A DNA stretch of 64,000 bases from Macrocystis pyrifera (taxonomy: Eukaryota > Sar > Phaeophyceae > Laminariales > Laminariaceae), in NCBI GenBank assembly GCA_031763025.1, contig JASSKH010000001.1:13419659-13483658 (forward strand), in the 5' to 3' direction. Positions within the stretch are counted from its first letter, which is position 1; each line of letters opens with the position of its first letter. Below, one piece after another: positions 42,617 through 63,935 of the stretch. Below the pieces are notes generated by a model. It made no database searches. It had not been told where the DNA came from and worked only from the letters and a program-made list of their open reading frames with translations. A program made the translations under genes and the position numbers.

Positions 42617-42647
<31 letters not shown>

Positions 42648-44462
42648 CCCCCCCCCCCCCCCCCCCCCCCCGCCCCTCCTCTGATGATGATTTTGTGTGC
42701 CCCGCAACAACTTGAAACGAACAGCTTCTCCTGCCGAGAATGGGTTTCCTACCCTGCATTGCGGAGGCGTTATCGCATCACTTCGGCGAGGTGGGCCCCG
42801 ACGCTCAGCGCAACCTCTGGCTGGAGGAGACTCGATCGGGGGAGCCGCTGAGATGGTACGTACACTGTTATTTGTGGTACATACTCTCGTAGCTCGTAGG
42901 AGGCGCTGAGATGGTGTGAAAGCTAAAAAAAAATCGAGTTCATACTCTTACAGCTCGGGAGGGGAGGCACTGGGATGGTATGCACCAGGTCCGCTTGAGC
43001 TAGACGTACCATATGTATGTGTGGCTACTGTCTCTGCTCTATACTGAGTATGCTGTCACCTGCTGTGTATATATATGACTATGCAGCAGAGCCAGGGGTA
43101 TTCTTAAAAAATAAACACACACACGTCACCATTTTTTTAGTAATAGACAGGGGGGTATACGAAAACGAGTAAAAAGGAATTTCACCATTGTTCTGGCTGT
43201 TTTGTTCGTCTTCTGGCCTCGGGAAGGAGTGTGCAACAGTCAGTAGCAAGCTGCCTTCTCTTTTCTTTCTTTTTCGTGTGCCCTCGAGCGGGCAGAGAGG
43301 TTCGAACTTTTCGACATCGAAGTCGTACCGTTATCGAACTGGAAAGTCGTATCATGACATTTCCGATGACAAAAAAACAAGGAACTGTAAACGACGGGAC
43401 GCTCGCTCGAGGTACAAAATATGATAACCGCTGTGATGGTATCAGGTATATGTGCTCGTTGATACGGTGAGTTTTCCTGTCTTGTAGTTGAGTTTTTTGT
43501 GTTCCATGCGCCCGTTAACTGACTCACGAGTAGATGCCGGTAGAATGGTTGGTTAAGTTTGCTCGAGGGGTTTTGATTTGGTTAGTTTGGCAGGTTGGTG
43601 GGTAGGTTGGTTGATGGGTTTGGTTGGTCGGTAAATTGGTTTGGTTGGTCAGTACATTGGTTTGGCTGGTTGGTAGAGTGGTTGGTTGGTTGGCAGATTG
43701 GGTTCGTTCGTTGGTTGCGTTTGTTGGTTGGCTGGCAGGTAGGTAGATTGGCTGGTTGGCTGGGTGATTTACGCTCTGGGTTTGATGTTTCGCGCCCTAA
43801 TCACCTCCATCAACCCGTCAAACAAGGCATTGGCCGGAGAATATTTGGCTTGGGGTTCAGCTCTCTCTATTTCGGGAGACCATAGTAAATAGGACCAAAT
43901 ATTATTAATAAAGAAGGTAAATATATAGGTTTTTGTGTGTACTATAGGTTCTATTTACTATGGCCCCCCCCATAATAGTATGGAAAGGTACGTCCTCGTA
44001 TATACGGACGGGCCGAAGGCCTAGTGTCAGAACGTCGATTAACCAAGAACATGTGCTGCTGCTGCTGCTGTCGCCGCTGCTGCCGAACGGCTGTCGCCGC
44101 CGCCGCGGTCGGGCGCTCAACGCGACCGAAACATGGTTCGAGTCGGGTCTGATGTAGCTCCGTCACAGCACAGCAACAGCAGCAGGCAGCACCACGCCCA
44201 GGGCACAAACAATTCACGCGCAAGGCAGCAGATGTACACGGCGAAACCCTCGTTTCTACCCGCACACCGCGCACCCCACTTCACATCCCACGCCCTAGTC
44301 TCTCCCCAGATGCCACCGACGGACCGCACGGCGGTGTCGCTTTCGCTGTTACGTCCAACAACAACCCAACAATACCCCCCCCCCCCCCCATGCGGCTGCT
44401 CCGTCTCGAAAGGGATGCGTGGTCAATGGTCAAATGACTAAGGCAAGCAACAAATTAGTACG

Positions 44463-44493
<31 letters not shown>

Positions 44494-47400
44494 CCCACGC
44501 CACGAAATTCGTAAAACAGCTGGAAACAGTACAGATGACAGCAGGTAAGAAAATACCAAGACGCTCGAGAACGGCTAGTAATACAGTATTAGGAGCAGAG
44601 CCGGGAAGAATGTACCCCCACTTGAGACAAATGGAGACATGAGAAAGTTGAAATGGCAATATTGATGTAAAGAACACGCAAAAAAAGAAGTTGCCAGCCA
44701 TAGCCGATAGGGCTGTGTTGGAGAAAGTAACAAAAGGGCTAGCTGGAGGAAGGTGGAATAGTGTAGTCGAGAAAGCATGGAAGGATGTAGGAGGAAACCA
44801 AGAAGAGATGCTATGTAGTATGCTGCCCACAGAGAACTTTTTGGGAGGTGCAAGACAGGAGAAAAAAAAAAGGATAGAAACAAGGGAGAGGCTATAGCGC
44901 TAAGAAATTAGGTGAAAGCGGAGAAACACTTGAAGATATCCGGGGGGTTAAGAAAAAAGATAAGAATGAAAGCATGTTCACGCGCCAATGGACTTCGCGA
45001 AAGCACTGAGACTGCGATTTCGTGTAGGGGGGCGCTGGACCTGCCAGAAGGAAGAAGGAGGTATACCAGTAGCCGGAAGAAGGAGGGGGTAGAGGCACAG
45101 ATGTGCCCGTGTGGCAAATCAATGAAGGGTAGAACTCACACAGTAGGAGAATGTAAGTGTACAAGGGGGGGCGGGACGTGTTAAAGCGGGAGACGAGGAA
45201 AATAGACGAATGTGACACGGAGGAGTTTGGTACACTTAAGATAGTAGCCAGAAAAACAACCCTATCGTAGGGGATGGATGGTGGCCACAGGCGGCCAAAC
45301 CGGAAGGGGATAAAATAAGCTAAACGTTTCTGTGTAATTTATACGGAAGCAACGCAATGAGCGCCCAACTATTGGAGGTGTCTATACTAGGGAGTATGGA
45401 CGATATCTCCGTCTCGAAAGGGATGCATGGTGAATTGGTCAAATAATGAAGGCAAGCAACCAAATAGGTACGCTCCCCCCCGTCCCCGTCCCCGTCCGCG
45501 TCCGCGTCCCCCGCCCCTTTGCACCCGCCTCCGCTCCCGCCTCCGCTCCCGCCTCCGCCCCCCCCCTCTCTGACTCCGCCTCCAATGTCGCACCGCAGGC
45601 ACATTCCGACCGGTGTCTTATTCGATCTCGTCGCCGGCCAGGAGGGGGAAACGTTTGACATGTTTCACACGACAAGAGAGGGGTACGCCAACAACGCAAC
45701 ACGCGCGTCGCCAGCAGCCGTAGCGGCAGCATCAGGGGCAGCAGCAGGGGCAGCAGCAGCAGCAGCAGCAGCAGCAGTTGCGGTTGCTGGCGGAAACGAG
45801 ATGCTCTCGCGGTCCGCGCTTCCGTGGCAGATTACCGTGCACTTCCAGGGGTGCCCTCGGCGACAGGTGGGGATAGAGTAGGGTGTGGTAAGGTAGGGTA
45901 GGGTATAAGGTCGGATATGGTGAGGTAGGGTTGGGTAGGGTAGGGTAGGGCAAGGTAGGGTGGGGTCGGGCAAGGGTAAAGTAGAGGAGGGTAGGGCAAG
46001 GTAGGGTAGGGTAGGGTAGGGTAGGGTAGGGTAGGGTAAGGGTAAGGGTAAGGTAGGGTAAGGTAGGATAGAGTAAAAGGGAGGGTGAGGTAGGGTGAGG
46101 TAGAGCAAGGTAAGGCGAGGCGAGGGTAAGTAGGGTAGAGTAGGGTAGAGTAGGGTAAGGTAGGGTAGGGTAGGGTAGGGTATAGCAGGGTAGGGTAAGG
46201 TGAGGCCGGGCAAGGGAAGGTAGTTCAGGGTAATACGGTACAGCGTAAGGTAGGGTACGGTACAGTACGATAGGCTTTGGATAGGGTAGGGTAAGGTAGG
46301 GTATTGTAGGAAAAGGTAAAGGTAAGACAGGGTAGGGTAAGGTAAGGTAGGGTACGGTAGGTGCGGTACGGTAGCGTGGGGCAGGTAGGGTCGGGCAAGG
46401 TATAGAAGGGTAGGGTAGGGTAGGGTAGGGTAGGGTAGGTAGGGTAGAGTAACTCACGCCACTGTAAATGCCGTTTTTTTTGTTTTTGGGGGAGGGCAAC
46501 GGCGGCGGAGGTGCGGGGGGGGGTGTACTCAGTGTCGTGCGTGGCCGTAGTCGTATGACCATAGACCCTCGCATCCCTACAATGCCGGGACGGAGCGCGT
46601 CGGGTTTTCACCGACCAGGCAGGCATTGCTTGCACCAAGCGCGAAGCGCCGTGAGGTGTTGGGTGAGTCGCATGAAGGGTGAGCTTCATGCTACTAAGAA
46701 CCGCTTTAGAGGCGGATTTTCTTGCATATGGATGACAGCATCAATGAATTGATTTAATTTTTGGTGTGGCCACTTCCAGAGACAGCAATGGGGTTACTGT
46801 AACTGCCTCGTGGGTGCCATACCATATACACACTACGTGATACGATCATCCCCCTTGTGCGGAGTGAAGGTCTCCCCGCACAAAAATGATCTAACTTAAC
46901 CGCCAGCCGTGGTAACCGCCAGAGAAAAATATGAAAAAAAAACGGTACCCTGGCAGTGTAGCTCACGCAGTGAGAGGCGTGTTTTACAGCGTTGTCGCCA
47001 CCCGACGCCAACCCAACCTACAGTATATATACCAGGTATGCAATATAGGGGAGGGCCACGAAATACCGACGAGAGCGATCTATGCTTCGCCCGCACCCCT
47101 CCCTCCTTCCTCCGCCCTTCTCGTGACAAGATGGCCCAGTTTTGTTTTCGGCCGTGTTTTTTTAGTTGATTTTGTGGCTTCCTGTTTTTTTTTCTTCGTC
47201 GTGCTGCGTACTAATTATTCGTCGTTCTTGGCCGAAAAACGAAAAAAAAAAAAAAAACAAGGTTTTTCCGCTGGAGAAGGAGCCCGACATCCGACGACAC
47301 TACACGAACACCCTGAAGCAGGCCTTGTACCTGCAGTTGGGTTCCTCTCGCGCCGGCATGACGCTGGCCAAGGACAAGCAGACGCGCCTGTGGAGGGCGC

Positions 47401-49438
47401 TGAAAGCGAGTGAGTGCAGCCGTGTCATCGGCACTACGGTAGCACTCTTCAAGACTTAGGGTATACACCGGTGTATGTATACGTATGTACTCGGGGGGGG
47501 TACTCAATCCGAGGGTATCAAACGTGTTTTTTTCATACTCGGGTAGGTACCCGGGTATGTACTCCCAGAGTATAGAGTATAGAGGCATGGTAAGGTACGG
47601 CAGGGTTTGATGTGTGCGTATCATGGTACCTGGTACTGTTTTTTTTTTCGTCCTGGGCGTACATACAAGGACAGCTTCGTACAAATATTATTGTCTCAAA
47701 GGGCCCTTATATTCCGATCCAGATCGGTACTACAGTAGTGTATGTATTCGGTAAAATAATCTACCCAATGGGATCGCGTATCGCTCGTAGCTTGTATCCA
47801 TACTGTTTCTTTCACATCACATCTCGGACATATCCTGTTGTATGGATGGCGTGTCGCACCAGAGGAATCATTCGTGTCATTTTTGATCGCGCTGAATTAT
47901 CTTCCATTACCGAAAAAGTACTTTGAAGAAAAAAAAAAAAAATATATATATATACGTAAAAACAATAACATTTTTAATCATAGGAAAGTAGTCTAGAAAA
48001 TACCTGGAGAACATACCGTAGATGGTGATCTATCTGTGCACAGTAGATCATCTAGTTCCTCGCGTGCCGCTGTGAGAGAGGTAATGCGGGATCTGCACGT
48101 ACAGCACGTCTCCTATTTACGTGTTCATACATGGGGCAGATTTTGTGCGGGTCCTGCCCTCCCGGCGGCATGAGCTACTGCTGTACCATGGTAGACCGTA
48201 CCAGTATACCAGACAAGATCGGGAATAGATGATGATCTACCTACCTATCTATCTGCCTTGAAAGATGTAGATCATGAACTGCGGGAACTGATGATCTCTA
48301 GATGATATGTAGATGATCTGTAGACGATTTGTTCGGCGTGTTTTTATCACAGCGGGCTGTTGAGTGAGTTTTGGAGCCCCTGAAATGAAGAGCCTTCCTA
48401 GAAATGACGTGCTTCGTGTCGTACCTAGCTCTGCCCATAGGACGCATCTGTAGAGGTTACCTCGTACCCTGGTGTTGATGTCAGCGTTTCGACGTGCCTG
48501 CCGACATGCACGGCCCAGGGGCAGGCACGCTGCTACTATGTCCGAGTATTTTACGAGAAACAGAGTTGGCACGCGTGATACATATACTTGTTGAAAAATT
48601 GAAGGAAAAAAATATATAGTTTTGTACCCGGTATGCATGTTTTCTCTAATAGGTGTCGTTTTTGTTGTTGTGGACGTGGGCCCGGAGGAAGGCATAGTAT
48701 GTTTTGTGAAATTGGTTGAACACGCGTCGACGGCTGGCTTTTTTTGTTGCCTGTACGGGGGACCGTAGTAAATAGGGCCTGCGGTACACACAAGAACCTA
48801 TATATTTTCCTATTTTTACTAACAATACTTGGTCCTATTTGCTGTGGTCCCCCGTAATAGTTTTCTTTTTCGTTTCACCAGAGGTACGAATGTACGCGCA
48901 CAAAAAACGCACATGCGCACAACCCAAACGCAAACACCACTATTAATACCGCAACTCACAAAACGACGCAAGCACACAAAATGCGCAACCAAAACACACA
49001 AAACACGAGATTAGGCGTAAAAAACAAAACGCGAAAACGCAAAAAAAAAAAAAAAAAAAAAAAAAACGCAGAACTCAAAACGCGAAACACACAGGTCACT
49101 AACGCTGTTTCCTATGCGGTTCATAGTATGACCAGTTCTCATTTTCAGCTGTGTAGCGAGACAGTCTTCCTCTGCGAAAAAAACGCATGCGTTGTGTGTG
49201 TGTGCAGAGATTAAGAGATTCGACACGCCGAGACCAACCGTTGTTGTGGTCCGGCGTCGCGAAGAGATGCGCCGAGTGCGCTGCGCTGGGCGTCGGACCC
49301 CAAGCGTCCGAACCCACGCTGATCGCCTCTGGTCCGGCGGCGAAGAGACGTGCCGAATGCGCTCGAGTCAACCTGTCTTGATGTTTTGTATTTTGACACA
49401 ATGAAGCATTCGGGCCCAGCCCGATGACTGGCTGACTG

Positions 49439-49477
<39 letters not shown>

Positions 49478-52400
49478 GTGCTGGTGCTGCTGCTGCTGCT
49501 GCTGTGGTCTACGAGTACGTGTCCACGGAGAAGCGCTCACCGAGTAGTCGCTTCTCTTGGCCTCTCCGCCCAAGCCCAAGCCAGCCGACTGCGGCCCGGT
49601 CGCGGAGAGACGCGCCGACCGCCGACTGCGCGTCGGTCGGGCGCGGAGCAACGTGGTGTGTCACCATCCAACTCATCGATCGTTCTGCTGCTGCTGCTTG
49701 CTTGCGTGGATACCATTTTGAAAAAAAAATGAGGCCATGCCATTTTTCGATTTGAAAATCTGATGGCCCAAGTCGTCGGATTTTGAGCGACTTGCGCCGT
49801 CGGGTTCTGAGGTCGAGAAAAATCCGGTCCGATTTTGAACATTCGGACTGCGTAAGCAGAGAAATGTTTTTTTGGGGGGGGGGGGTCGAAAAATACAAAT
49901 CTGAAGCTCGAAATCGAACCTCTTAGGAAACGGCCTAAATTGATAGATACCGGGTGTCGAATTTGGCGTTGGTGAAGATGTATATATATTTTTCGTGTTG
50001 TCATGCCTCAGGAAACGTTCACACCGAGTATCACCGACATCCATGCTACTTTTTTTTCCGGACTTTGGTATTCGTGTAGACTCTACAGCACTCGTATATA
50101 GTAGTGCCCATACATGTTCGTACGATACGTGACCGGATTAAAATCGGCATGGAATTTGTCGGTGACAAGAACTCGGATTCCAAACCCTACAACGTCGACA
50201 GATATGCAGGAAGAGAGTCAGAAACGCATTAGCTGCAAAATTTGGAAGTGTCCTACTCTTTGCCAAACGGTTGCGAAAACGCCGATTAATTGTGAACTTC
50301 AGCCTTCTGTGTGGCTGAACCGGGTGCCAGGTTTAAATATAAACGTAAAACACTAAAAGTTGACCACAAAACGTGAAACACGAAAAAAAAAAAAAACCAC
50401 CACCACCACCACCAACAACAACAACAACGGCCACAAAACAAAAGACGTGCCCACGCTCGCGCTCCCGCATTTTCCTTTAGGTGCACGCTCAGTCTGTTTC
50501 TTCCCCTCTACCCCCCCCCCCCCCCCTCCCCCTGCCCCCCCCCACCCTGTCTTCTTCGTGTCGTGTTCCCGTCCTGCCCGCCAAATGAAACGAAATAAAC
50601 GATCAACAAAAAAAAAAGACGATGTCAAGGTTTTCCACGAGATGGACGCGTTTTTGGGGTGGTGACGGAGGGCTGCGCCTGGTCCCCGTCCGGCTTGTGA
50701 CGGGCGAGGCGCCCCCCTCGCAGCTCCCGATACCGACGGAAAGGCCAGATGGTGGGACATTGTGGGATAGCATGTGATGTTGTCGGATACTATTGTGGGA
50801 TAAGGTGGGATTTTTTGTGATGAGTGTGGGACATTGTCGGGCGTTGTGGGATACTGTCGGATATGTGGTCTGAGTGTCTGAATGTAGTGGTATTTTGGTG
50901 GGTTTTCGTGCGTCGGGAGCGCGTTTTGCCACGGTATCGTACAGTTTTGTTGTGTACCGTCATGCCCTAGCGTTCCATATGTATCATCGTGGGCAGGGTT
51001 ATTGTTGCTGGCGCTGTACCGTATTGTTGTGTTGTGTTATCATACCCCGCATCGTGAACCGAAAAACCCAAACTTTGTTTTTCGGTCGGTGTTTGCCGAC
51101 CGAAACCGACTTTTGGGGGGGGGGAGGGGGGGGGGGGGGGGGGGGCGGTTTTTCGGTTGACAAAAAAAACGACCGTAATCGGAAACCGACTCGTTTTGCT
51201 TCGGTTGATATTTTTTTCGCCTGTCCTGCCTTCGACGCCGATGACGCCTACGTGTCTGTGGTAACCCCGGAATCCAACCGAAAGTGCGCACCTGTGTAAG
51301 TTGATAAGTTCCACTAGGCCGCCGAGAAAATGGGAGGACAGGTAAGCGGGTTTGTTGATTTACTCTGCACAGCTGTTTGTTTGGATATATGTTGGATATA
51401 TGTCGTACCTGGTATATATGAATATTTTGCCAGGTCGGTGTTTTTGTTTGTGTCTTTTCTCTCCGTGCGCTTCTCTCTTTTGCCCTATATTTCTCCACAT
51501 CTCTCTCTAATAGAACAAAAAGAGGCCCCAGCAACGAGAGGAAGAGGGAGAGAGAGCGAGAGAGAGAGAGAGAGCACGCAACCAACGAGTCGAAAAGACA
51601 CATTTTCAAAACCACAACAACACCAACAGCAACAACAACAAAACGAGCAAACAAACAAAATGACCGTCTCACCCACTCGCCACGTCACATCACATCACAT
51701 CACATCACATCACACGTCGTTTCCCAAACTCAACCCCCTCCCCAAAACTAAAAACCAACCTCTCGCGACTACCCCAAAACTAAAAAAAAACCGAACAGGT
51801 ACGCCGTTTACGCTGCGGGACTGCCTGGCGTGGCTCTGTCCAACGGTCCCATGGGACGCGGCAACGGCCCCACTCGACGCCGCGGCCGAGGCGGCACGCC
51901 ATCCCTCCGGAGAGACGACGGTCGGGCCGGAGCCCCCCTTGACTCCGATACCGCTTCCGCCGCCTCCGCCGCCGTCTGGATGCATGCAACAGCCCGGGCG
52001 GCATGGATGAGAGACCACTAGCGGGAGCAGTAAAAGGGAAGGAGGGAGGGAGAGAAGGAGGGGAAGGCGGAGTCGGGGCAGGAGGACCGGGGGGGAGAGA
52101 AGGAGGGGGGGGGGAGGAGGGAGAGAGAGGAGGAGGGGAGAGGGAGGAGGGAGGAGGAGGAAGAGGAGGAGGAGGAGGAAAAGAAATAGCGTATGACGAG
52201 GGCGATTCCGGTACGGGAGAAACCGGTGGTAAGCGGAAGAGACGAGCCCAGAGAAGGAGAGGAGGAAAAAGAGGGCGAGCGTCAAGGAGCTCTCAACGCA
52301 GAGGGAGGGCAGAAGAAGGAGGGTGGCGGGGACGGGGAGGGGGGGGGGGCGGAGGGGGGGGCGTTCCATCGCCGCCGTTTCCCTCGCCGTCACCGTTATC

Positions 52401-52581: not shown

Positions 52582-52709
52582 TAGATAAACTTATAGATAA
52601 TACCACTCTCTGTCCCTACGGATATAGAGACAATTTTTGACTACATTGCGAGTATTGAAACGTTCCTACTTCTTGGACGCAGAGCGGTGGATACAATCGG
52701 ACTGACTGA

Positions 52710-52745
52710 TGGTGGTGGTGGTGGTGGTGGTGGTGGTTCTGGTGG
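52710..52745. repeat. GGT microsatellite
   Basis: (GGT)n run just downstream of the ATG5 stop; a second at 53,148-53,195. Confidence 0.88.
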
Positions 52746-53429
52746 TACTGGGATGGAGGGGATTTTTGGTTTGTCTTGTTTTTATTTTTTTTCGTTGTTT
52801 CAAAAGTTCGAAAAATGCATCGTCTGTCGGCCGTGTCCTCAGCGGCCGTTATTGTTTATTTATTTTTTTTTTTTTTTTGGTGTGTCGTGCTCCGGTAAAA
52901 TCATATGTGCGAGTGTAAGCTGTGGCTGTCTTGTGCGTGCTGTACGTAGATAGGCGTGCGAAGCGAAAACGACCAATTTTGCGTCAAACAGTAAGCTTTT
53001 ATCACCGTCTGTGTTGCTTGTCTTAAGTGATGTCACAGTATCCCATTGCCATCAATCGTCTCGACCGTCGTCAGTAAAAGGCCGGCAGGTGGTACTCTCT
53101 GGTGGAATGTTGTCTCCCAGTGCCGGCATGTTTGCGTGTCACCTTGCGTGGTGGTTGGTGATGGTGGTTGGGGTGGTGGTTGTGGTGGTGATGGCTATGC
53201 AGGTGTACCCATCTCCCACGGGTAGTGTACCAGGTACTTGGTTTTTGTTTGTAAGGATTGGCTTCGAAGATAATTTTCGCTCTCGCAGCTGAAGGTGTCT
53301 TTTTTTTCATTTTTTTTTTTTTTTATCGGTGTACTTCCCGTTGTTTCTGTCTTCTTTCTTTGTCCCTCTCTCAAGAAAAAGCGGATGGGTGCATGTGCCG
53401 TCTATCGTGCACAGGTGGCCAGAACCCCC

Positions 53430-53581
53430 CCCGCCCCCTCCCCAAGCAACGTCTACCTGGTCGGTGAAAACCCGACGCGCTCCGCCCCGGCATCGTAGGG
53501 ATGCGAGGGCCTATGGTCACACGACTACGGCCATGCACGATAATGAGTACACCCCCCCCCCCCCCCCCCCCCCCCCCCCGC
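53430..53581 (+). mobile_element. SINE-like S family, 3'-end copy with poly(C)
   Basis: CTGGTCGGTGAAAACCCGAC, GGGATGCGAGGGCCTATGGT, ACTACGGCCATGCACGATAA, GAGTACA and C31. The 5' part is truncated. Confidence 0.85.

Positions 53582-53714: not shown

Positions 53715-53780
<66 letters not shown>
53715..53780. repeat. Poly(G) run of 66
   Basis: Uninterrupted G66. Confidence 0.97.
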
Positions 53781-53781
<1 letters not shown>

Positions 53782-53987
53782 GGGAGCCCGACCACCCTTG
53801 TGTATCGATTCCCTGTCCATGTAGTGGAGGTGTGGATCGTTTTATGCATCGAGACCGAAACGGCAAACTCCCTATTTTTCTTGCGAACGGGGAGGGCCGA
53901 GGTTTTGTCGTGTGTTGTGTGGTGGATTCGGCAACGGGGGGCGGAAGGTGGGCGAGCGGGAGGCGGAGGGGTGAGGGGGTAGGGGGT

Positions 53988-54155
53988 GGGAGCGTACTCG
54001 TTTGTTGCTTACCTTAGCCGTTTTTTTTATCATTGACCCCGCACTACTTTCGAGACGAAGCACCGTTCCTACTCCTGATAGAGATTCGCCTCCAACTTGG
54101 CGCTCATTGCGTTGTTTCCATACATTACAGGGGGGGGGGGGGGGGGGGGGGGGCG
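53988..54155 (-). mobile_element. LINE L family, 3'-end copy
   Basis: On the - strand it reads NVWKQRNERQVGGESLSGVG, then the shared tail KVSNKRVRS; an additional G/C run lies on its 5' side at 54,131-54,154. Confidence 0.75.
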
Positions 54156-54614
54156 GGGGGATGCTAATATTGCGCTTTCCCTTCCTGTTTCGCTGCGAAG
54201 GGGGGGAGGGCAACAGGAAGGAATGCGAAAGCGAAAGTCACTCACGCCCGGACGGAGATGGAGGGGTTCAAAAAAACAAAAATCACGATTCAACGCGAGT
54301 TGCTTAATTTCACGCAGCCGCCTAACATGCAGACGTTGTTGGCTTGCGTGAAAGTCCGGGGATCACGGCTGGTAGGGTAACGTTTCCAGCACCTCAGACA
54401 GAACATCGATTCCCCGCTGCTTAAATGAGCTTGTAAGTAGACCTTTTTGGGGCAAATATATCCCTGGTTTATACATGTTATGTGGTCTACTGTTGCTGTG
54501 ACTAATGTTTCCGGCGGTTGGGGAGTGGTACGATCTGTACCGTGCTGTGCCAATAGCACGTATTCCCCAGGTTGGGTCTGTGCTTTGCAGATCCTGCGCA
54601 ACCTCTCGCAAGGG

Positions 54615-54937
54615 GAAGGGAGGGGGGTGTACTCGATATACATGCGTGGCCGTAGTCGTGTGACCGTAGACCCCCGCATCTCTACAATGCCGGGGCGGAG
54701 CACGTCGGGTTTTCACCGACCAGGCAAGACATTGCTTGCACCAAGCGCGAAGCGCCGTGAGGTGTCGGGCGAGCCGCGTGACGGGTGAGCTGCATCCTAT
54801 GAAGAAACCGCTTATGAGGCGGACTTTCTTGCATATGGATGACAGCATCTCATGGAAATGAATTTCAGGTGTGGCCACTTCCAGAGACAGCAATGAGTTT
54901 ACAATGAAACTGACTCGTGAGTGCCTTACCTTGCGGG
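54615..54937 (-). mobile_element. SINE-like S family copy
   Basis: Runs in complement from CTGGAAGTGGCCACACC to ACTACGGCCACGCATG and a C-rich tail; the 5' third is missing. Confidence 0.83.
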
Positions 54938-55012
54938 GAGGGGGTTTGTACTCGATATCATGCATGGCCGTAGTCGTATGACCATAGACTCTCGCATCCC
55001 TACAATGCCTGG
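54938..55012 (-). mobile_element. SINE-like S family, tail only
   Basis: Only the last 70 bp (GGGATGCGAGAGTCTATGGT to GAGTACAAACCCCC in complement), immediately beside the previous copy. Confidence 0.8.
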
Positions 55013-55572
55013 GCGGGGGGGGACTATGAATAGATGAGCTAGATCATGATCTATCTGTGTTCGAGGTGCGTATACCGTTTGGCCTTGCAGATCAATTCTC
55101 GACCCCGTCCGACCGAATAATCTCCCGTCTTTTTTTTCAGATAAATTCCCACAGCAGTTACCGACAATATTGGGGGTTTTCTTCATCCTCCCGCGGATGG
55201 TCGTGATGTAGTCACCCCCCGCGCGAGCTCCTATTGTAGCAGCGAGAGCTACCCACGCTTGAACTAGGTGTCCGTTTCTATATTCGTGCGAGCGACTGTG
55301 AAAAAGTGGGGAAATACCTCTCTCGCTGAAGTGCATACTAAACGGGGGTTATGTATGTAGCCGATGATGTGTCGATGTGTGTACAAAGCGTGAGCGGTCC
55401 CAACGGCAAAATGATTTTTAAACGTTGTGTACTGTACCACACCAACCAAGGGGGGGCAAGTCGTGTCGCGCTGCGATTGATCTCGCGGAATTGATTCGGT
55501 GAGGCCATACCATTTTCGCCGCAGCAACACTGGACTAGAGAACGGCTCGATAAATTTCGCCCGCGGAGCCGG

Positions 55573-55601
55573 AAAAAAAAAAAAAAAAAAAAAAAAAAAA
55601 G
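55573..55601. repeat. Poly(A) run
   Basis: A28 or close. Confidence 0.92.
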
Positions 55602-55657
55602 CGCAGAGAGAGAAGCCTCCTTTTTTTATTTTTTCGCCGCGAGCGAAACATTTTATC

Positions 55658-55767
55658 TATTGCGGGGGACCATAGTAAATACGACCAAATATTGTTAGTA
55701 AAAATAGGTAAATATATAGGTTTTGTGTGTACCGTAGGTCGTATTAACTATGGTCCCCCGTAATACC
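55658..55767 (+). mobile_element. MITE-A copy 15
   Basis: Ends CTATTGCGGGGGACC and GGTCCCCCGTAATAC; intergenic between ATG5 and the TLDc gene. Confidence 0.9.
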
Positions 55768-55996
55768 CGTTTCCAGTTAATGTCATGACAATCTTGTTGG
55801 GAACTGGAAACAGTTCGTACCGGAATTTTGTTCTATCGGCATTAATTTATTTCAATAGTTGCAAACAAAAAAGAGCCGATATTCGTTTGCGTATGGTTCC
55901 AAGTGGTTTACGGGAGTATAAATGACGCCCATTACATCGCCAAAACTAGCCTCCCCGGCGGTCCCAAGCGCGACATGCAGCCTAGAGTGAGGGCGG

Positions 55997-56024
55997 GGGG
56001 GGGGGGGGGGGGGGGGGGGGGGGT
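55997..56024. repeat. Poly(G) run
   Basis: G27 or close within an open frame of no known family. Confidence 0.92.
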
Positions 56025-56149
56025 GACAACACGCGCTCCCGCTGGCTATGTGGAGCCCTGGTTCTACCTCCACTCCACTCCTACACAGCCGTCCTCGTAC
56101 GCCACTGCCAACCCCCTCGCGTTGCAAACGCAGCCGGTACCACCTACAC

Positions 56150-56310
56150 ACACCGCTCCGTCAATTGTCGAAATGGCTCTTAGACAAGGCAAGCAACAAA
56201 AGAGTACCCCCGCCCCCCCGCTGGCCCCCCCTGCTCCTCCTCGAACGGGATGCGTGGTCAATGGTCCAATAACTAAGGCGAGCAACAAACGAGTCCCCCC
56301 CCCCCCCCCC
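56150..56310 (+). mobile_element. LINE L family, two successive tail copies with poly(C)
   Basis: GGCAAGCAACAAAAGAGTAC plus C-rich at 56,187-56,221, then CGAACGGGATGCGTGGTCAA, TGGTCCAATAACTAAGGCGA, GCAACAAACGAGT and C-only to 56,310. Confidence 0.78.
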
Positions 56311-56319
56311 TATATTTTA

Positions 56320-56832
56320 TACCTGGTATATATACTGTAGGTTGGGTTGGCGTCGGTTGGAGACGACGCTGTAAAACACGCCTCTCACTGCGTGAGCTAC
56401 ACTGCCAGGGTACCGTTTTTTTTTTTTGGCGGTTACCACGGCTGGCGGTCAAGTTAGATCATTTTTGTGCGGGGAGAACCTTTACTCCGCACAAGGGGGA
56501 TGATCGTAATACGTAACCAGGTAGCGTGTATATGGAGAGGCACCCACGAGACAGTTACATAGTAAACCCATCGCTGTCTCTGGAAGTGGCCACACCAGAA
56601 ATTAAATCAATTCATTGATGCTGTCATCCATATGCAAGAAAATCCGCCTCTAAAGCGGTTCTTAGTAGGATGCAGCTCACCCTTCATGCGACTCGCCCAA
56701 CACCTCACGGCGCTTCGCGCTTGGTGCAGGCAATGTCTGCCTGGCCGGTGAAAACCCGACGCGCTCCGTCCCGGCATTGTAGGGATGCGAGGGTCTATGG
56801 TCATACGACTATGGCCATGCATGACAATGAGT

Positions 56833-56895
<63 letters not shown>
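56320..56895 (+). mobile_element. SINE-like S family, full-length copy with C62 tail
   Basis: Co-linear with 46,515-47,040. It starts TACCTGGTATATATACTGTA directly after an L-family C tail and ends GACAATGAGTA followed by 62 C. The long pure tail suggests recent insertion, though homopolymer length may be unreliable. Confidence 0.88.
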
Positions 56896-56898
<3 letters not shown>

Positions 56899-56945
56899 CC
56901 TCCCCCTACGACTACGGCCAGGTATGATATCGAGTACACCCCCTG
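56896..56945 (+). mobile_element. SINE-like S family, tail fragment
   Basis: ACGACTACGGCCAGGTATGA then GAGTACACCCCC. Confidence 0.7.
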
Positions 56946-57519
56946 ACCAAACATGCTATTCAGAGATCACAGTTTGACCCCCTTTGCGCCTTTCAGAAGA
57001 GACCACCTACCAAAGCAGTACTAGCCTAATCAGTGACATCACCGCTGGCTTGAGTATCAGGCTGTATACGCAGTATGAACAGGTTTTATCTCAAAAAAAG
57101 CAACACCGTCTAGACAGAAAAATTGCTGTAGTATAGGCAAGGCACACCAGAAGAGACCTTGAACGCGCGTACCACAACGACCGGTCTCCTCGTACCCTAC
57201 CCCTATTTATATATTCCCCTCAGCGCGGCGCGGCGCGGCGCGCTTGCTCGCCATTTAACAAAGCTCAATCATCACCTCCAACCAACGTCGCGTCCCGCAA
57301 GCGGGTGGGCATGCTCGCCGCGGCGGCCCCTCTGTATACGTAGATACACCTTTCAAGGCTCCCCTGCTCTGGCCTCCCAAAAATATCGGACTGTCAGACT
57401 ACCAGAACATTCGTTGCAGCAGGATATAGGAGTATCAAGATGTCGAATTATCAAAATATCGAAGAATCTAGCTATCAACCTATCAAAATCTCCACTTTAT
57501 CGAAAATATCCGAAAAGAA

Positions 57520-57546
57520 AATGAAAAAAAAAAAAAAAAAAAAAAA
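57520..57546. repeat. Poly(A) run
   Basis: A-only run of more than 20. Confidence 0.9.
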
Positions 57547-57688
57547 CACGTGAAACGGGCGAGGACAAGCACGAGGCGGTATTTTTTCATCACCCCGCCC
57601 GTCCAGATTAGAGCTGCAGCGGGGTGCACATGCCCCAGCCGTCGTGCGAGAGTCACGAAAGATAGGCGTCTCTACCAACAAGGTCCGG

Positions 57689-57785
57689 CGGGGGGGGGGG
57701 GGGGGGGTGTACTTGATGTCATGCATGGCTATGGTCGTATGACCATATACCCTCGCATCCTCAAGTACAATGCCGGGACCGAGGG
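57689..57785 (-). mobile_element. SINE-like S family, tail copy
   Basis: In complement: CCCGGCATTGTACTTGAGGA, GGGTATATGGTCATACGACC, ATAGCCATGCATGACATCAA, GTACACC and C run. Confidence 0.82.
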
Positions 57786-58168
57786 GGGGAACACTGGAAC
57801 AATTAAGCGCTGCAGCGCCGCCGTCAGCTTGGTGTTGAGGGCAAGCTGAAGGTGGACGGCCAGCGGTCGGTGCTTTTTTTTGCTGCTCCCCTCCGCACGC
57901 TGTACGCCAACCTTCGCCGGAGAAACGAAGGAGCACAAAACGAACTGGTGGCCGAACGAACCAACCGCTCATGTACGATGCAGCACTACTAGCTAGTGCC
58001 AGGATAATGCTGCTGGATACCGGCATCGTCCTGCCGTACCAGTGCTATACTAGAGTGGGTAGAGTGCTGTATGCGATCTTATTCCTCCACTACACTGTGC
58101 GTTGTATGCACCAGAGCGCTCCGTGCTGGCACTGTGAGGGATGCGCGATGTTTGGAGGAAATAAAAGA

Positions 58169-58288
58169 TCAAGACTGGCCCTGGCGCCGGTCTTCGTTAG
58201 CATTGTAGTGCCCTCCCCCCCCGCCGAACGTCTTTCCCAGTAGGAACTCCTTGTCGAACGAGTTCGTCGCGAACTTGGACTTGTCCAC
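58169..58288 (-). CDS. TLDc gene last exon and stop
   Basis: The exon follows an ATTCAG acceptor and has 40 codons including TGA. It reads VDKSKFATNSFDKEFLLGKT, then FGGGGGHYNANEDRRQGQS. The FDKEFLLGKT block is a familiar tail of plant and algal TLDc proteins. The glycine run comes from G8 on the coding strand, a site prone to length change. Confidence 0.82.
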   Translation of the reverse strand: MDKSKFATNSFDKEFLLGKTFGGGGGHYNANEDRRQGQS

Positions 58289-61200
58289 CTGAATTATTCA
58301 AAAAAAACAACGGAATGGAAAGAAAAGAAATGAAAATGAAAATACAACGGCGAACGGGCGAGCGGGGCGGTCTCTCGGATATCGCAATCGGTTGTTCCGA
58401 TGACGTGTTGGATATCGTATCGGTTGCTTCGATAGTGTGTTGGATATCGTATCGATTGGTGGACATCATATCGATCACTACGATTTTGATAATGTATAGG
58501 TGTTGGATATTGCGTCGATTGTTGCGATTAAGCTAGTTGGGATGAGGATCTTGTAACCTGTTTCCTACCAGTGTAGGTGGAGAAAAGTGACCAAAATGAC
58601 GTTTTTAACCCCAACTATTCTTGGGTTTGGTTAGTAAACGGAGCAAGTTCTGGTTGGTTAGCGCCTTCGTTCGTATTCACAAATTTAACCAATCAGCTCC
58701 TCGCGTTTCTCGGTTTCAAAAATATTAGTGCAACCCAAAGAACCCAACCAAATGGGATTATCGCAAAAAATATCCTGACATCTCCTGGTATATATAGGTG
58801 GGAAGAAAACTCGACCGATCGAAAAGCAACCGTCTGACCCACCTGTCTCGCTTGGTTGATCTGCTGCGCAGTCAGCTTCCTCTGCTTCTCCCTGGCTTCC
58901 AACGCCTCCCCCAGCGCCTCTTCGCCGCCCACTCCCCAAACCTGCCGGGGTACAAACACACAGACACAGTACAACAACCCATGACACACACGGGAAATGT
59001 CAAGAGTATGGACACACGCAAATCGTGGCGCACACGATCATGGACACATGCACGACGCATGGGCGCACACACAAGTCATGGACACACGTGTACACAAGCA
59101 ATGGACACGAGGCGTTCGTTCTACGATAAGAGGCTCACCCTATTTTTTCTGAGGCTCCTCACATGACCTTAAGGAGCTCCACACCTCACCCGAAAACTGA
59201 CTTGCTGCAAAAAAAATCAAATCGCATCCCGATGAACAATCAATCCCATGGCCCAAGCATACAAAAACGTCATTTTTTCGAAACAAGATTGGCATCATCC
59301 CGACAATTTTGGGTCAAGGAGCCCCGTCATTCAGAAAAAAAATATCGGAAAAGTGCTATTACGGAGGACCATAGTAAATATGACCAAATATTGTTGGCCA
59401 AAATAGGTAAATATATAGGTTTTTATGTACATCATAGGTCCTATAAACTATGGACCCCCGTAATACCTCTATCGTAGAACGCGTCAAACAGTATGAAAAC
59501 ATCGTGGACCCACGCATCAACCGCGGACGCCCGCACGAATCACGGACACACAACACGAACACAAAAAACTAAATTACAGTAAGCTGAACGAAACTAAACA
59601 GGAGAAACACCGCCAGCACCAACACCACCAACATCGGCACCCATAACAACAGCACACCAGCATGGACACAAAAACTAAACTGAACTAAACTAACCCCACA
59701 CCGATAACAACAACAACAACAACAACAGCAACAACAACCCGACATCAAAACATGCGCGCAGATATGTGTACGCGTGCGTATTGTACGCCTCGCCCTCCAC
59801 TCGCCACCAAAGCCTGATATTGCGCACGTACAGCAGTAGTGTAGTAACCGCATCCCCTTCCAGGGCAAACAGCTTAGAATTCGAGCAGCTAGCCTCCGAA
59901 ACGGGCGTGCAGTTTTTGCCCCCTAAAGGATTCAATGTTTCAATCCTAAAGGCCGTTATATTGTACCAGGTATAGCATTCAGAGTGCTACTGCTGTAGTT
60001 CTGCGGTTGAGGAGGCCCAAAAAACTACTATGTACGGGGGACCACAGGTATTAGGACCTACGGTACACACAAACACTCCTATTTCTATATTTTGACCAAC
60101 AATGTTTGGTCCTATTTACTATGGCCCCCCGAAGTAGAGCACAGTAATACCTACCGCCTGCCGTGAAAAGGCAACAAAACCATGAAACAACATTTGGGAT
60201 CGGAATGTCCGTAACATCGTATCGCGGAGAGAGGCGGTCTCTGTGTTTTCTCTCTCCCGTACGAAGCTCGTAAGCACACGAGCCGGTCGAGAACAAAAAA
60301 ATACCTTGAGACCATGCCAAGGTCTACTGGCGCGCAGGGGGAGGCCTCGTCCAATCAAATACTTCCGTGAAATTATCCCACGCTAAAGAGAGATAATATG
60401 TGCGGTGACATGGCCCGACAGCAACAAAATACCCAATATTTACGCAAGGTGTTTCAGAAAATATGTTTCTTCCAAACGAATTTCAGGCTGGCATTTTTCA
60501 GTACCATTCAATAAGTTACAGGTAGGCCTATGGTACATGGGCCTTTGTACTCAGAGAAGAACGCCAGTAAAAACTCCTACACAACAGCCTTCAAGAGCCC
60601 ATACATATACTCAAGTATAGGCTCATACAAATAGTCAGCATCTCAATATGCCGCGAGCCTTAGCTAACACAGGAGATTGAAGTTCTCAACTGCTGTCGCG
60701 GACTGTATGCCTTTTGCCCTCGCTCACCTCTAGCACGTCAACCTCGAACCTGCGGGAGGAATGAGGGCAGAGCTCTCCACGCTCGAACGTCAGGCAGGCG
60801 CTCCTCCCCACGCACGTGCCGTCCAGAGCCTCGGGCAAGAAGAAACGAAACGCGTCCGTCGAGCCCCCCATCCCGATGCCGTGGGGTAGGCTGAAGCCCT
60901 TCAGGTTCAGGTACTGGAAGTGACCGTCGCTGCTCGTGCCGCCGACAAGGTTATGGTCAAGGCCCAGGTCAAGGGGTTAAGGTCAAGATCGAAGCCAAGG
61001 TCAAGGTCAAGGTCAAGGTCAGATTCAAGGTTAAGGTCAACGTCAATGTCAAGGCCAAGGTCAAGGTCAACGTCAATGCCAAGGTCAAAACCAAAGCCAA
61101 GGCCAGATTTCAAGGTCACGGCTAAGGCCAAGGTGGACCTCAACGCCAAGGTCAGATTCAAGGTCAACGTCAAGGCCAAAGTCAAGGTCGGAGTCAAGGT

Positions 61201-62731
61201 CAAGGTCAGAGTCAAGGCCAAGGTCGAGGTCAAGGTCAAGGCCGTGGTCAAGGTCAACAGCAAGGCCAAGGCCGGGGTCAGCGCCAAGGTCAGAGTCATT
61301 GCCGAGGTCAGAGTCAAAGTCAACGTCGAGGGTACAGTTTCATGTCTTCCTCAAAAATCAGCTTACGGGTGGCTTATTGATGACTCGCTAATAGTATAGA
61401 GCTCCTGCACTGAGAAGCCCCAGAAGGCAACAAAAAAAAAGTGCCAGGTATAGGTGCACCCACCCCCTATATCACGGAACGACATAACCGGGCATCACCT
61501 CGCTATCTTCGCCGGAATGACCTTGAAGTCTGGGTCGAGGCGCATAAGGAACGACCCCTCGCCGCCGTAGAAGGAGTTGCTCTCTTTCCAGGCGGAATCG
61601 GCACAGGCACCCCACACGGCCCCGGACTCCCTCTCCCTTATCAAGATCACGGTGGGGCCTCCGTACCCCACGAGCTTGAACACTATCCTGTGAAGGTGGC
61701 GGGGGGGGGGGGGGGGGGAGGGGGGTTGGTCGGTGATCATTGATGTGAGGTGTTTTTCGGGGGTTGGTGATAGTGATAGTGATAGTGATAGTGGTGGTAT
61801 TGGTGGTATTGGTGGTATTGGTGGTAGTGGTGGGTGGTGGTGGTGGTGGTGGTGGTGGTGGTTGTTTTGGTGATCTGCGTAAGGAGGTAAAGCTAAACGT
61901 TCTCCGGCATGCACATACCATAAAACCGAATCCGCACAGAAAACTTGTGTGGCGAAGCACGTACGGACGCAACCGAGGCCCCGACAGGTACGTTGCTCCA
62001 CACACACGGGGGCACCCGCAGCAGCATGCTATTAGTACTAGCACTGGTAGCACTATTATTTGATAGTATGCTCCCCCCCGCACCAAAAATCTCAGATGAT
62101 GCCATAAATGAAAGCTATCAGCACAAAATATCTAACGTAGGCCTGTATTCCATCCACGTATATTTCGATGTTAATATTATTATTATTGTTATTGGTACGG
62201 TTTTGGGCACTATTTTTTACTATTAACATTATTACCATCCTCATTCTGTTTATTATTGTTAGTAGTAGTAGTAATAATAATAGTAGTAGTATTATTATGA
62301 TTAATGCGGTTGTTATTATTGTAGTATTGTTACTATTTTATTGGCCCTTTGTTTCTCCCTCCCCCTCGTATTGTAGTCGTAACTCAGATCAACCATTGGG
62401 ACACACAGCAGGCTCTCCTCCCCCCCCCACCACCACCGTTCGTGCCTCCACTTTTTTCGCGAGAAAAACATATTATACCAGCCATTGCTTCCCTCGTCGA
62501 CTGGCGTCTTGTAGTCCAATTGATGCGGGTCCTACCCTTGCCTGTTGAAAGACATGCCGTCCTCTTCGCTGTTGTAGATCCTCATCCACGGACCCTGCAG
62601 GGCCTTGGTCGAGAGCGCCAGCCCGAACAGCTCCGCCGGGTAGGTTTCGAGTAGGAAGGAGGGCTGCTGCGGCCGGGGGGGCGAGAACACGGCCAGCGAC
62701 CGCGGCAGGCTCGCCGCCGAGCACGGCAGAG
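58169..62731 (-). CDS. TLDc-domain (OXR1-like) protein, 5'-incomplete, five exons
   Basis: TLDc proteins protect against oxidative stress and several bind and disassemble the V-ATPase. The five exons join in frame as RIYNSEEDGMSFNR | IVFKLVGYGGP..IRE..FYGGEGSFLMRLDPDFKV | HFQYLNLKGFSLPHGIGMGG..FEVDVLE | VWGVGGEEAL | VDKSKF..FDKEFLLGKTFG. These are the TLDc hallmarks: DGxSFN at the start, SFYGxxxSFL in the middle, the GxGxGG glycine motif, FEVDxxEVWG at the end, then a basic coiled segment and FDKEFLLGKT. About 264 residues are visible. Earlier exons must lie upstream of 62,731 or beyond the window. The gene converges on ATG5, whose stop is about 5.6 kb away. The family call is firm; the subtype is not. 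Confidence 0.88.
58843..58941 (-). CDS. TLDc gene exon (VWG and coiled segment)
   Basis: This 33-codon exon lies between a GGCAG acceptor and a CAG|GTGGGT donor. It completes FEVDVLE with VWGVGGEEALGEALEA and continues REKQRKLTAQQINQARQ, a charged, probably helical segment that follows TLDc in algal and plant relatives. The phase is 0 on both sides. The preceding intron (about 1.8 kb) contains two MITE copies. Confidence 0.83.
59140..59345. repeat. Dispersed repeat R2, second copy
   Basis: Inverted match to 22,541-22,735 (ACCCGAAAACTGACTTGC, CCCATGGCCCAAGC, GGAGCCCCGTCATTC), ending at a MITE-A copy. Confidence 0.75.
59356..59466 (+). mobile_element. MITE-A copy 16 (TLDc intron)
   Basis: Complete; its left flank is the inverted counterpart of the flank of copy 7. 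Confidence 0.9.
60028..60137 (-). mobile_element. MITE-A copy 17 (TLDc intron)
   Basis: Left end TGTACGGGGGACC, right end degraded (CCCCCCGAAGTAG). Confidence 0.86.
60728..60929 (-). CDS. TLDc gene exon (glycine motif to FEVDVLE)
   Basis: The first base completes a serine codon; then DGHFQYLNLKGFSLPHG, IGMGGSTDAFRFFLPEALDG and RRFEVDVLE follow, matching the C-terminal half of TLDc. The donor is GAG|GTGAGC, phase 0. The acceptor (GAGCAG) lies directly at the end of a hexanucleotide array that occupies most of the preceding intron. Confidence 0.87.
60945..61335. repeat. GGTCAA hexanucleotide array in a TLDc intron
   Basis: About 60 imperfect units of AAGGTC / AAGGCC / AACGTC. It fills most of the intron and ends about 20 bp from the acceptor of the next exon. 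Long open frames on both strands follow from the period-6 pattern and are not genes. Confidence 0.92.
61499..61687 (-). CDS. TLDc gene exon (central TLDc)
   Basis: The acceptor TTCACAG follows a tract of about 17 C. The exon reads IVFKLVGYGGPTVILIRERE, then WGACADSAWKESNSFYGG and SFLMRLDPDFKVIP, the core of TLDc with its SFYG-x-x-SFL motif. The donor is AG|GTGATG and leaves phase 2. Confidence 0.87.
61699..61862. repeat. G-run, GTGATA and GGT repeats
   Basis: G17 at 61,699-61,717, (GTGATA)4 at about 61,766-61,790, then (TGGTAT) and (GGT)n. Confidence 0.88.
62165..62340. repeat. ATT/AGT trinucleotide-rich stretch
   Basis: (TTA)n, (AGT)n and (AAT)n runs in the TLDc intron. Confidence 0.8.
62542..62731 (-). 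CDS. TLDc gene, first visible exon (start of TLDc domain)
   Basis: It encodes SFLLETYPAELFGLALSTKA and then GPWMRIYNSEEDGMSFNR, the opening of the TLDc domain. The 5' boundary is a probable acceptor (GTGAAG) behind a GT-rich stretch and is uncertain. The 3' end AACAG is followed by GCAAGG, a GC donor with otherwise ideal consensus; it leaves AG, to which the next exon adds G for arginine. Confidence 0.78.
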
Positions 62732-62865
62732 CTTCACGCAACAACAAGCACACACACATAAAATACAAACAAGGGAAGGGGAGGGGGGCAGGAGGAGGCG
62801 CGGGGGGGGGGGGTGGCGGGTCAGAACGAGCGGGGCGGATAAGGTAATAGGGACGCAAGAGTCAG

Positions 62866-62965
62866 CAGGGGGGGGGGGGGGAGTGGGCGGAGGAGCAGGC
62901 GTACTCCTTTGTTACTCGCCCTAGTCATATGACCATTGGCCACGCACCCCTTTCGAGACAGAGCT
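62866..62965 (-). mobile_element. LINE L family, tail copy with poly(C)
   Basis: In complement: CTCTGTCTCGAAAGGGGTGC, GTGGCCAATGGTCATATGAC, TAGGGCGAGTAACAAAGGAG, then a C-rich run. Confidence 0.78.
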
Positions 62966-63174
62966 GGGGGGAGGGGGGTGGAAGGGGGGTAAAAAAAGGA
63001 ATACGGGCGGAGCGGGGGGGGGCTAGGTGCGAAGGTTGTGAAAGGTAAGAGACAACGACTATTCGCGCAATCATGTTCTCATTGAATCGCCGAGACGACC
63101 GATAAGTGGAGTAGAGCAGCTTATGGGAGCTGCACGAAAGCGAGGGGGGCACGGGGACAGGATGGGGGCGGGGG

Positions 63175-63535
63175 GCGGGGGGGTGTACTCATTATCATGC
63201 ATGGCCGTAGGGGTATGGCCATAGCCATAGACCCTCGCATCCCTACAATGCCGGGACGGAGCACGTCGGGTTTTCACCGACCAGGCAGACATTGCTTGCA
63301 ATGCACCAAGCGCGAAGCGAAACGTGAGGTGTTGGGCGAGTCGCATGAAGGTTGAGCTGCATCCTACAAAAAAAACCGCTTTAGAGGCGTATGTTCTAGC
63401 ATGTAGATGGCAGCATCAATGAATGGATCTAATTTCTTGTTTGGCCACTTCCAGAGACAGCAATGGGTTTACCATGTAACTGCCTCGTGGGTGCCTCACC
63501 ATATACTTAGCACACTACGTGATACGATAGACAGG
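63175..63535 (-). mobile_element. SINE-like S family copy
   Basis: In complement from GTATCACGTAGTGTGC through CTGGAAGTGGCCAAACA and AGGATGCAGCTCAACCTTCA to GGCCATGCATGATAATGAGT and C-rich tail. Confidence 0.85.
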
Positions 63536-63779
63536 ATGGGGGGGGGGGGGAGGAGGAAACCCCGCACCTACGGCCCATCATCCGACCAGGCACCTATCAC
63601 TGCGCAAGAACGTGAAACGGAACGATGAACTAATAGACGCGGGTACCCTCGGCGAAGGGCGGTACGGAGACGGGGGGGGAGAGGGAGGAGGGGGGGGGCT
63701 ACAACTTAGGCTGGCCTTGCGGAAAGCACAGAAAACGAAGGGTGCTCCCAAAGAAATCTGGCCAGTCTACCCAAGGGGT

Positions 63780-63935
63780 TGGAAAGCACCACACAACGCC
63801 CCTGTCCCGGCATTGCAAGGATGCGAGGGTCTACCGTCATAGGACTACGGGCATGACATTAGTACCCCCCCCCCAATGAGTACACCCCCCCCCCTCCCCT
63901 CGGCCATGCATGAATATGCGTACCCCTCCGCGCCC
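63780..63935 (+). mobile_element. SINE-like S family, two tail fragments
   Basis: CCCCTGTCCCGGCATTGCAA, GGATGCGAGGGTCTACCGTC, GGGCATGACATTAGTA and C9; then AATGAGTACACC plus C and a second GGCCATGCATGAATATGCGT. Confidence 0.75.

Follow-up and report, generated by a model that had tools for sequence, protein, structure and literature searches.

Retroposons sharing one 3' end probably insert at genomic C-tracts in Macrocystis pyrifera

In a 64,000-nucleotide stretch of the Macrocystis pyrifera genome (contig JASSKH010000001.1, positions 13,419,659 to 13,483,658, or C189:13419659-13483658; hereafter the window), two families of retroposons share one 3' end and are associated with runs of C. One of them, L, is a long interspersed nuclear element (LINE); the other, S, resembles a short interspersed nuclear element (SINE). 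Together with a 66-nt short form of L, here called mini-L, they probably integrate by target-primed reverse transcription at genomic C-tracts. Most copies have C-runs on both sides, some are enclosed by target-site duplications that include the tract, and close neighbours point in the same direction. A farther-reaching proposal, that of a homopolymer-C-specific retrotransposition in which the LINE nicks poly(C)/poly(G), primes with the G's and lets itself, S and mini-L pile up in a locked orientation while the C-tracts grow by self-seeding, is in our judgement about evenly balanced between right and wrong.

The S and L copies of the window were found by BLAST within it, and further loci were fetched from the assembly (537,376,219 bases in 223 contigs). 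Labels such as L018, L042 or L084 denote these fetched loci and not copies of the L family. The scored places comprised 40 for S and 38 fetched out of 40 for L, and a larger flank set held 143 copies, of which two with too short flanks were removed from the flank counts (n = 141).

Nine S and five L copies were recognized in the window, including those listed in an earlier note on this DNA and, beyond that list, an old S at 14,436-14,835 and an S at 54,949-55,016. The S and L tails can be aligned across about 65 nt along the motifs that the note had named, with 15 invariant columns among 12 sequences; in the alignment rows the S tail reads GCTCCGTCCCGGCATTGTAGGGATGCGAGGGTCTATGGTCATACGACTAYGGCC...GAGTACAC and the L tail GCTCCGTCTCGAAAGGGATGCGTGGTCAATGGTCAAATGACTAAGGC...GAGTACGC. 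The common core ATGGTCAHAYGACTAHGGC occurs five times in the window and in none of 100 shuffles. Where an L copy has an open end, its reading frame crosses the shared tail and the TGA stop of this frame begins 8 nt before the C-run; thus, the shared 3' end is coding in L. The mini-L copy La and part of the other L copies have TTA at the position of this TGA. A subset of S copies (e.g., at L010, L017, L021, L022, L023, L036 and L062) forms a subfamily with a longer end, GAGTA CATCTCTCYTATCGAGTACACCC, in which the tail end is repeated before the C-run; except for this extension, no common sequence past the C-run was seen in the flanks inspected by eye.

L is probably an autonomous LINE. A search with its C-terminal part yielded 4,725 candidates in the genome, and the 150 scored places among them include open frames of up to 707 amino acids. 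An 851-base piece near the 707-residue place (L084) reads, in order, the tail of an S, a run of 14 C's and a reverse transcriptase with the FADD motif, so that this L copy starts inside the C-run of an S. The enzyme matches RVT_1 of Pfam (E=3e-16), its nearest solved structures are those of R2 (9.4e-14) and LINE-1 ORF2 (1.2e-6), and it is in frame, by arithmetic, with the L C-terminal match at C189:8216163-8216408, whose frame is open over 707 amino acids. L thus has a reverse transcriptase of the type lacking long terminal repeats (non-LTR), as read over 183 amino acids at L084 only. Like other LINEs, L combines a fixed 3' end with variable 5' truncation and variable target-site duplications, those with bases other than C being in the minority. 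Its C-terminal part gave nothing above the Pfam cut-offs. When the lists are compared by eye, no listed L match has any of the top 150 RVT_1 matches (of 7,470 candidates) within 10 kb, and the RVT_1 search therefore did not place L. Many other reverse transcriptases are present in the genome, with open frames of up to 1,299 amino acids among the 150 scored places of these 7,470 candidates.

S has the traits of a SINE: it is short (523 bp), non-autonomous and present in high copy number, its tail giving 3,141 first-look candidates genome-wide, and its 3' end is shared with a LINE. The suggestion of the earlier note that S is a SINE moved by its partner LINE is supported by the shared end, the reverse transcriptase of L, the 5' truncation, the target-site duplications of some copies and the copy number. 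In the head of S, no tRNA was detected by ARAGORN in its bacterial setting, and no tRNA, 7SL or 5S was among the eight Rfam matches up to E 1 in positions 42,401-64,000. Pattern and protein searches for relatives in IMG/VR and in bacterial and archaeal genomes returned nothing or chance matches only.

The association with C-runs extends to both ends of the copies. In the window, a run of at least four C's is found within 25 nt 5' of 13 out of 14 copies, compared with 8.5-10.7% of random positions, and for both flanks the mean is above every one of 100,000 random draws; it should be noted that the query ends of S1, La, Lb and Le had been set at the C-run. The 5' end of S1 coincides with that of S2, whose unrelated flank ends at the identical point. 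In the larger set, 99 of 141 copies have at least six C's within 20 nt on the 5' side and 117 of 141 have them within 20 nt on the 3' side, as opposed to 3.2% of positions drawn at random from the same loci, and G-runs of that length are present in only 2 five-prime and no three-prime flanks. The L query ended in eight C's, which biases the 3' flanks of L, whereas the 5' flanks were not selected by the query; eight L copies of this set that start at the query edge, and whose true 5' end may lie elsewhere, are still counted. Among the scored places, 32 of 40 S and 27 of 38 L copies have a run of at least five C's that ends no more than 20 nt upstream, and five of the eleven remaining L places have no usable 5' end, three starting at the query edge and two at the locus edge. 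At the S locus L075, the sequence 3' of the element reads N. Copies truncated at the 5' end carry 5' C-runs as well. As is characteristic of LINEs that target simple repeats, the repeat stands on both sides of the insertion. An unrelated palindromic element from the same loci served as a control; in the stretch 8-28 nt beyond its ends, C- or G-runs of at least six occur in 2 of its 80 left flanks and in 2 of its 80 right flanks.

These flanks modify the statement of the earlier note that both families terminate in poly(C). The 3' runs are real (e.g., 62 C's at 56,834-56,895 and 30 C's at 44,463-44,492), but the same runs flank the 5' junctions and the visible duplications hold the C-tract, which indicates that much of the C-run is target DNA. 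The 3' flanks of Lb, Ld, Le, S4 and S5 are C-rich and not pure C, and neither S8 nor the old S9 illustrates the pattern well. An alternative is a true poly(C)-tailed pair, in which the RNA ends in poly(C) that is either encoded or added through slippage, while insertion is near-random and the 5' C-runs are accidental or secondary. The greater frequency of C-runs at the 3' than at the 5' side would suit such a pair, as would L018, where about nine C's exceed what the target can supply and the RNA must carry some C's of its own. We nevertheless regard it as unlikely, given the 5' C-runs of 99 copies, truncated ones included, the tract-containing duplications, the 55:1 orientation of close neighbours (see below) and the copy at L042, whose 3' run of 7 C's is shorter than the 13 C's upstream, so that insertion does not require a long poly(C) tail. 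The 3' 'tail' is thus part target and part C-rich RNA end.

Several long tracts in the window have no detected S or L adjoining them, namely those at 53,715-53,780 (66 G's), 42,617-42,671 (27 and 24 C's), 55,995-56,023 (29 G's) and 220-247 (28 G's); it is possible that they are empty targets or remains of eroded copies. The 3' tail at L064 contains CCCCTAAACCCCC, which is telomere-like, probably by chance.

Target-site duplications connect the tracts with the insertion event. In 67 of the 143 copies, a run of at least five C's ends within 3 nt of the 5' junction, where a duplication would be pure C and therefore invisible, and 37 copies have no such run within 20 nt. In the other 39, the junction lies 4-20 nt past the C-run, and the bases in between recur after the 3' C-run with a score of at least 6 in eight copies; a score of 6 is attained by 8 of 39 own pairs versus 73 of 5,410 cross pairs, and a score of 7 by 5 of 39 versus 12 of 5,410. 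These eight are L018 (TGCACACTGC), L044 (ATACGATTYT), the window copy S3 (ATCCTGTC), L036, L029, L042, L058 and L039, the last of which is C-rich, doubtful and may be due to chance. At L044, a mini-L copy in the same tract shows the duplication too. Duplications that join the tract to other bases, with scores of 7-10, were identified at L018 (CCCCTCCCCCCCTGCACACTGC), L058 ((C)nTGTGGC), L044 and L031 (CCCCCCCCGGCATCG), and the duplication of S3, CCCCCATCCTGTC, likewise includes its C-tract, as do those at L029, L036 and L042. Weaker ones at L069, L064, L070 and L059 score 5.0-5.6, a level matched by 1.6-4.8% of cross pairs, and single cases among them may be chance. Judged from the duplications, the empty sites would have been C-tracts of 4 to about 30 C's, for example ...ggca[CCCCTCCCCCCCTGCACACTGC]gggcg at L018 and ...aacat[CCCCCCCCCACTA]ctgta at L059.

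The same junctions bear on a second alternative, according to which the C-runs belong to the mobile unit at both ends, source copies residing in C-tracts and both runs being copied, so that the choice of target would be weaker. This scheme, compatible with integration at C-tracts, is conceivable although we consider it rather doubtful. It would account for the C's that separate the duplication from the 5' end of a full-length S, 11 at L031 and five at L070, and for the fixed 5' end of mini-L adjoining C's. However, 5' C-runs are found as well at S copies truncated at scattered positions, and at L018, L058, L059, L029 and L069 the element begins directly at the duplication with zero extra C. 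The additional C's at L031 and L070 suggest that the RNA, or else untemplated addition, can be the source of some of the C's at the 5' side.

Copies pile up head to tail with a shared direction, beside C-runs probably left by earlier insertions. Among 203 S and L copies or fragments, neighbours no more than 120 nt apart agree in orientation in 55 cases and disagree in a single case, compared with 23 same and 33 opposite among neighbours more than 300 nt apart. In 47 of the 49 close pairs whose upstream member is 3'-complete, the gap contains a run of at least five C's; two close pairs (L026 and L027) are duplicates of each other. Tandem duplication does not explain these pairs, since 27 of the 49 are an S adjoining an L. 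The common orientation is expected if the C-tract fixes the direction of insertion and each insertion leaves a new tract.

Many short L copies begin at one base, TGCTCCGTC..., 66 nt before the tail end, and we conclude that mini-L is a real but minor form. Among 24 copies obtained outside the L search, 12 start at positions 597-605, whereas the densest 9-nt bin in 20,000 random sets held 6. Among the scored L places its share (27 of 38 starting at 597-602) is too high, as these places were ranked by similarity. For the first 23 nt of the L tail there are 3,911 exact occurrences in the 537-Mb genome, and among the 100 of these that were listed, with some small contigs looking like duplicates of one another, nine have CCCC ending 0-4 nt upstream when the lists are compared by eye. 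A separate genome count (3,683 forward, 1,055 reverse and 0 in controls) included overlapping forward starts and was not used as a number of sites. Mini-L may have a transcript of its own, may stem from a processed RNA or may reflect a site at which the reverse transcriptase tends to stop. A diagnostic base for it was dropped: TGA is found in 27 of 41 mini and 5 of 27 long copies, a rough pattern with part of the rows unparsed, and the query itself had TTA and the sample was skewed. Truncated S copies possibly have a second favoured 5' end at S coordinate 277-285, where 8 of 85 start within 9 nt, some of them at duplicate loci.

As many as 17 of the 27 listed mini-L copies are identical across all 66 nt in differing flanks, and this, as well as the poly(C) at both ends, would fit a spread at the DNA level, with poly(C)-flanked cassettes moving among C-tracts by gene conversion or microhomology-mediated repair. 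We consider this highly improbable, because target-primed reverse transcription is what typically leaves duplicated bases past the tract (as at L018, L044, L058 and S3) and a variable 5' truncation combined with a constant 3' end.

Under target-primed reverse transcription at C-tracts, the most plausible course of events would be the following. The G-rich strand of a C-tract would be nicked, and cDNA synthesis would be primed by the free 3' G's at the nick once these had annealed to the element RNA at its C-rich 3' end. The cut in the strand carrying the C's would fall inside the tract or as far as about 13 nt past it, a geometry by which the new copy is sense with the C-strand and stands between C's, and by which the tract becomes duplicated. 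S and the 66-nt mini-L would be non-autonomous passengers that carry the 3' recognition end of L and use its machinery. The enlarged C-run may then serve as a fresh target, and such self-seeding would cause the clusters, with head-to-tail build-up in one orientation.

Several points weigh against this interpretation. No endonuclease of L was seen, and no L sequence upstream of the reverse transcriptase was obtained. The tail RNAs fold no better than shuffles and RNAalifold reveals little covariation among the tails; a candidate hairpin in the shared tail was dropped for the former reason and because the RNAalifold pairs are located elsewhere. Eight of the 40 scored S copies have no run of at least five C's within 20 nt upstream, the duplications with non-C bases are confined to a minority of copies, and the non-target C's at the 5' ends of L031 and L070 are not explained by the target. 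In a whole-flank test, own pairs reached a score of 5 in 10 of 78 versus 93 of 1,926 cross pairs, a score of 6 in 5 of 78 (one of them pure C) versus 24 of 1,926, and a score of 6.5 in 4 of 78 (L018, L058, L044 and L031) versus 3 of 1,926. An earlier duplication test on the 143 copies gave 9 of 143 versus 2.1% of cross pairs at a score of 5, and 4 of 143 versus 0.4% at a score of 7; in the first such test, on the window copies, S3 alone stood out and was equalled by 4.5% of cross pairs. The excess was small in the former and nearly absent in the latter; it was larger when the bases behind the C-run were scored, and in the whole-flank test for few copies. No empty site was found among the matches listed for the fetched loci. 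Finally, these loci are the top of similarity-ranked lists and not a random draw, and the locus pairs L026/L027 and L007/L075 resemble segmental duplicates and hence are non-independent.

To our knowledge, targeted LINEs aim at rDNA, small-RNA genes, telomeres or short-unit microsatellites. For example, Dong and TRAS/SART are non-LTR retrotransposons specific to microsatellites or telomere repeats. The UnaL2 element and its SINE in eel are a LINE/SINE pair with a shared 3' tail, and Alu and L1 insert into the A-rich tails of older Alus, so that a tail becomes the landing site for later copies. S and L resemble the latter in using the tail as a landing site and differ in having C instead of A and in the 55:1 orientation of close neighbours. 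Simple-repeat-targeting non-LTR retrotransposons described in part of PMC4640811 include Togen at (TG)n and some HERO families. Like these, as far as that part describes them, S and L insert into a simple repeat that is left on both sides, but their target is a homopolymer of C that is also used by non-autonomous partners of very different length. In hagfish, the 3' part of RTE-tailed SINEs is related to the partner LINE, according to passages of PMC7245038, and the S/L pair shares this design. Unlike the hagfish pairs, as those passages present them, and the eel pair, the shared tail is coding in L and no tRNA, 7SL or 5S head was found in S by the searches given above.

The closest counterpart is that of the brown alga Ectocarpus, where passages of PMC12477816 describe RTEX-N1_Ec32, a non-autonomous element of about 600 bp and unknown 5' origin with more than 6,000 copies, whose 3' end is common to the autonomous RTE-X LINEs RTEX-1_Ec32 and RTEX-2_Ec32. 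The S/L pair is similar, by description only, in combining a short non-autonomous element that has a LINE 3' end with many copies; C-tracts, target choice and clustering are not mentioned in the main-text passages concerned. The earlier note knew of no described poly(C)-tailed pair in stramenopiles, and this has to be narrowed: a LINE with a non-autonomous partner has been described in Ectocarpus, but those passages do not mention C-tracts. Full-text searches found nothing relevant on poly(C) tails or tracts with retrotransposons, which is weak evidence of absence because most subscription journals are not covered. Both the design of a LINE with a SINE-like partner and the targeting of simple repeats by LINEs are thus already known from the parts of these sources cited above, and the C-tract target would be the new variant.

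If true, a homopolymer-C target that comes with self-seeding landing pads and a locked orientation would add a new rule of targeting, one that is testable by counting. Targeting of C-tracts suggests what primes the cDNA and may help to explain the frequent long C- and G-tracts in this part of the window. Mini-L, if it is an element of its own, would represent a near-minimal RNA for recognition by a LINE, a long-standing question for LINE/SINE pairs; consisting of little more than the recognition end, it could be among the shortest known retroposons.

The individual copies in the window illustrate these arrangements. The full-length S copies are about 523 bp long and the remaining ones are cut at the 5' end. 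S1 (56,311-56,833, plus strand) has a 5' flank of 16 C's, which is the tail of the short L copy Lc (56,231-56,294, plus), and the 62 C's at its 3' side (56,834-56,895, plus) separate it from a tiny S tail piece at about 56,907-56,938, recognized by eye. S2 (46,526-47,047, minus), which has the same 5' end as S1, is flanked by CCCTCCCC at the 5' and 9 C's at the 3' side. Truncated at their 5' ends are S3 (63,186-63,528, minus) and S4 (54,630-54,926, minus), the latter positioned after the C-rich tail of the strongly truncated S5 (54,949-55,016, minus), which has a 5' C-run. S6 (53,443-53,549, plus) is truncated between C-rich flanks with 28 C's at the 3' side, and S7 (57,710-57,783, minus), also truncated, has a 5' C-run and 18 C's at its 3' side. 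S8 (63,791-63,855, plus) is a degraded tail followed by more C-runs and tail pieces up to 63,956, and S9 (14,436-14,835, plus) is an old copy with 72% identity. The L copies of the window are short tails and one degraded 981-bp 3' part, Lb (44,493-45,473, plus), with the C-terminal frame CPCG..H..GEC. Lb follows the 30 C's of La (44,397-44,462, plus), a mini-L copy between 15 and 30 C's; the start of Lb was set at the end of that run. Ld (62,900-62,964, minus) is a short tail with both flanks C-rich, and Le (53,990-54,129, minus) is truncated, with 24 C's at its 5' junction. Also recognized by eye, besides the piece near 56,907, were similarly tiny tail pieces near 63,873-63,925 and, near 56,155-56,207, a diverged L tail.

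La, Lb and S2, the last in antisense, lie in the host gene ATG5 (42,716-52,581, plus), which was recognized by Pfam matches at 42,716-42,889, 45,561-45,878 (below the cut-off), 47,202-47,429 and 51,943-52,581. As these three copies fall between the matched pieces, they must be intronic. The long introns of ATG5 are filled with retroelements and simple repeats. Degenerate minisatellites are found at 45,880-46,450 (GGGTA-type) and 60,945-61,354 (AAGGTC-type). The palindromic element that served as a control, GGGGGACCATAGTAAATA...TATTTACTATGGTCCCCC, is probably a miniature inverted-repeat transposable element; it has 80 copies in the fetched loci and the window, and those in the window are located at 43,867-43,979, 48,754-48,860, 55,657-55,764, 59,356-59,462 and, as seen by eye, about 60,033-60,139.

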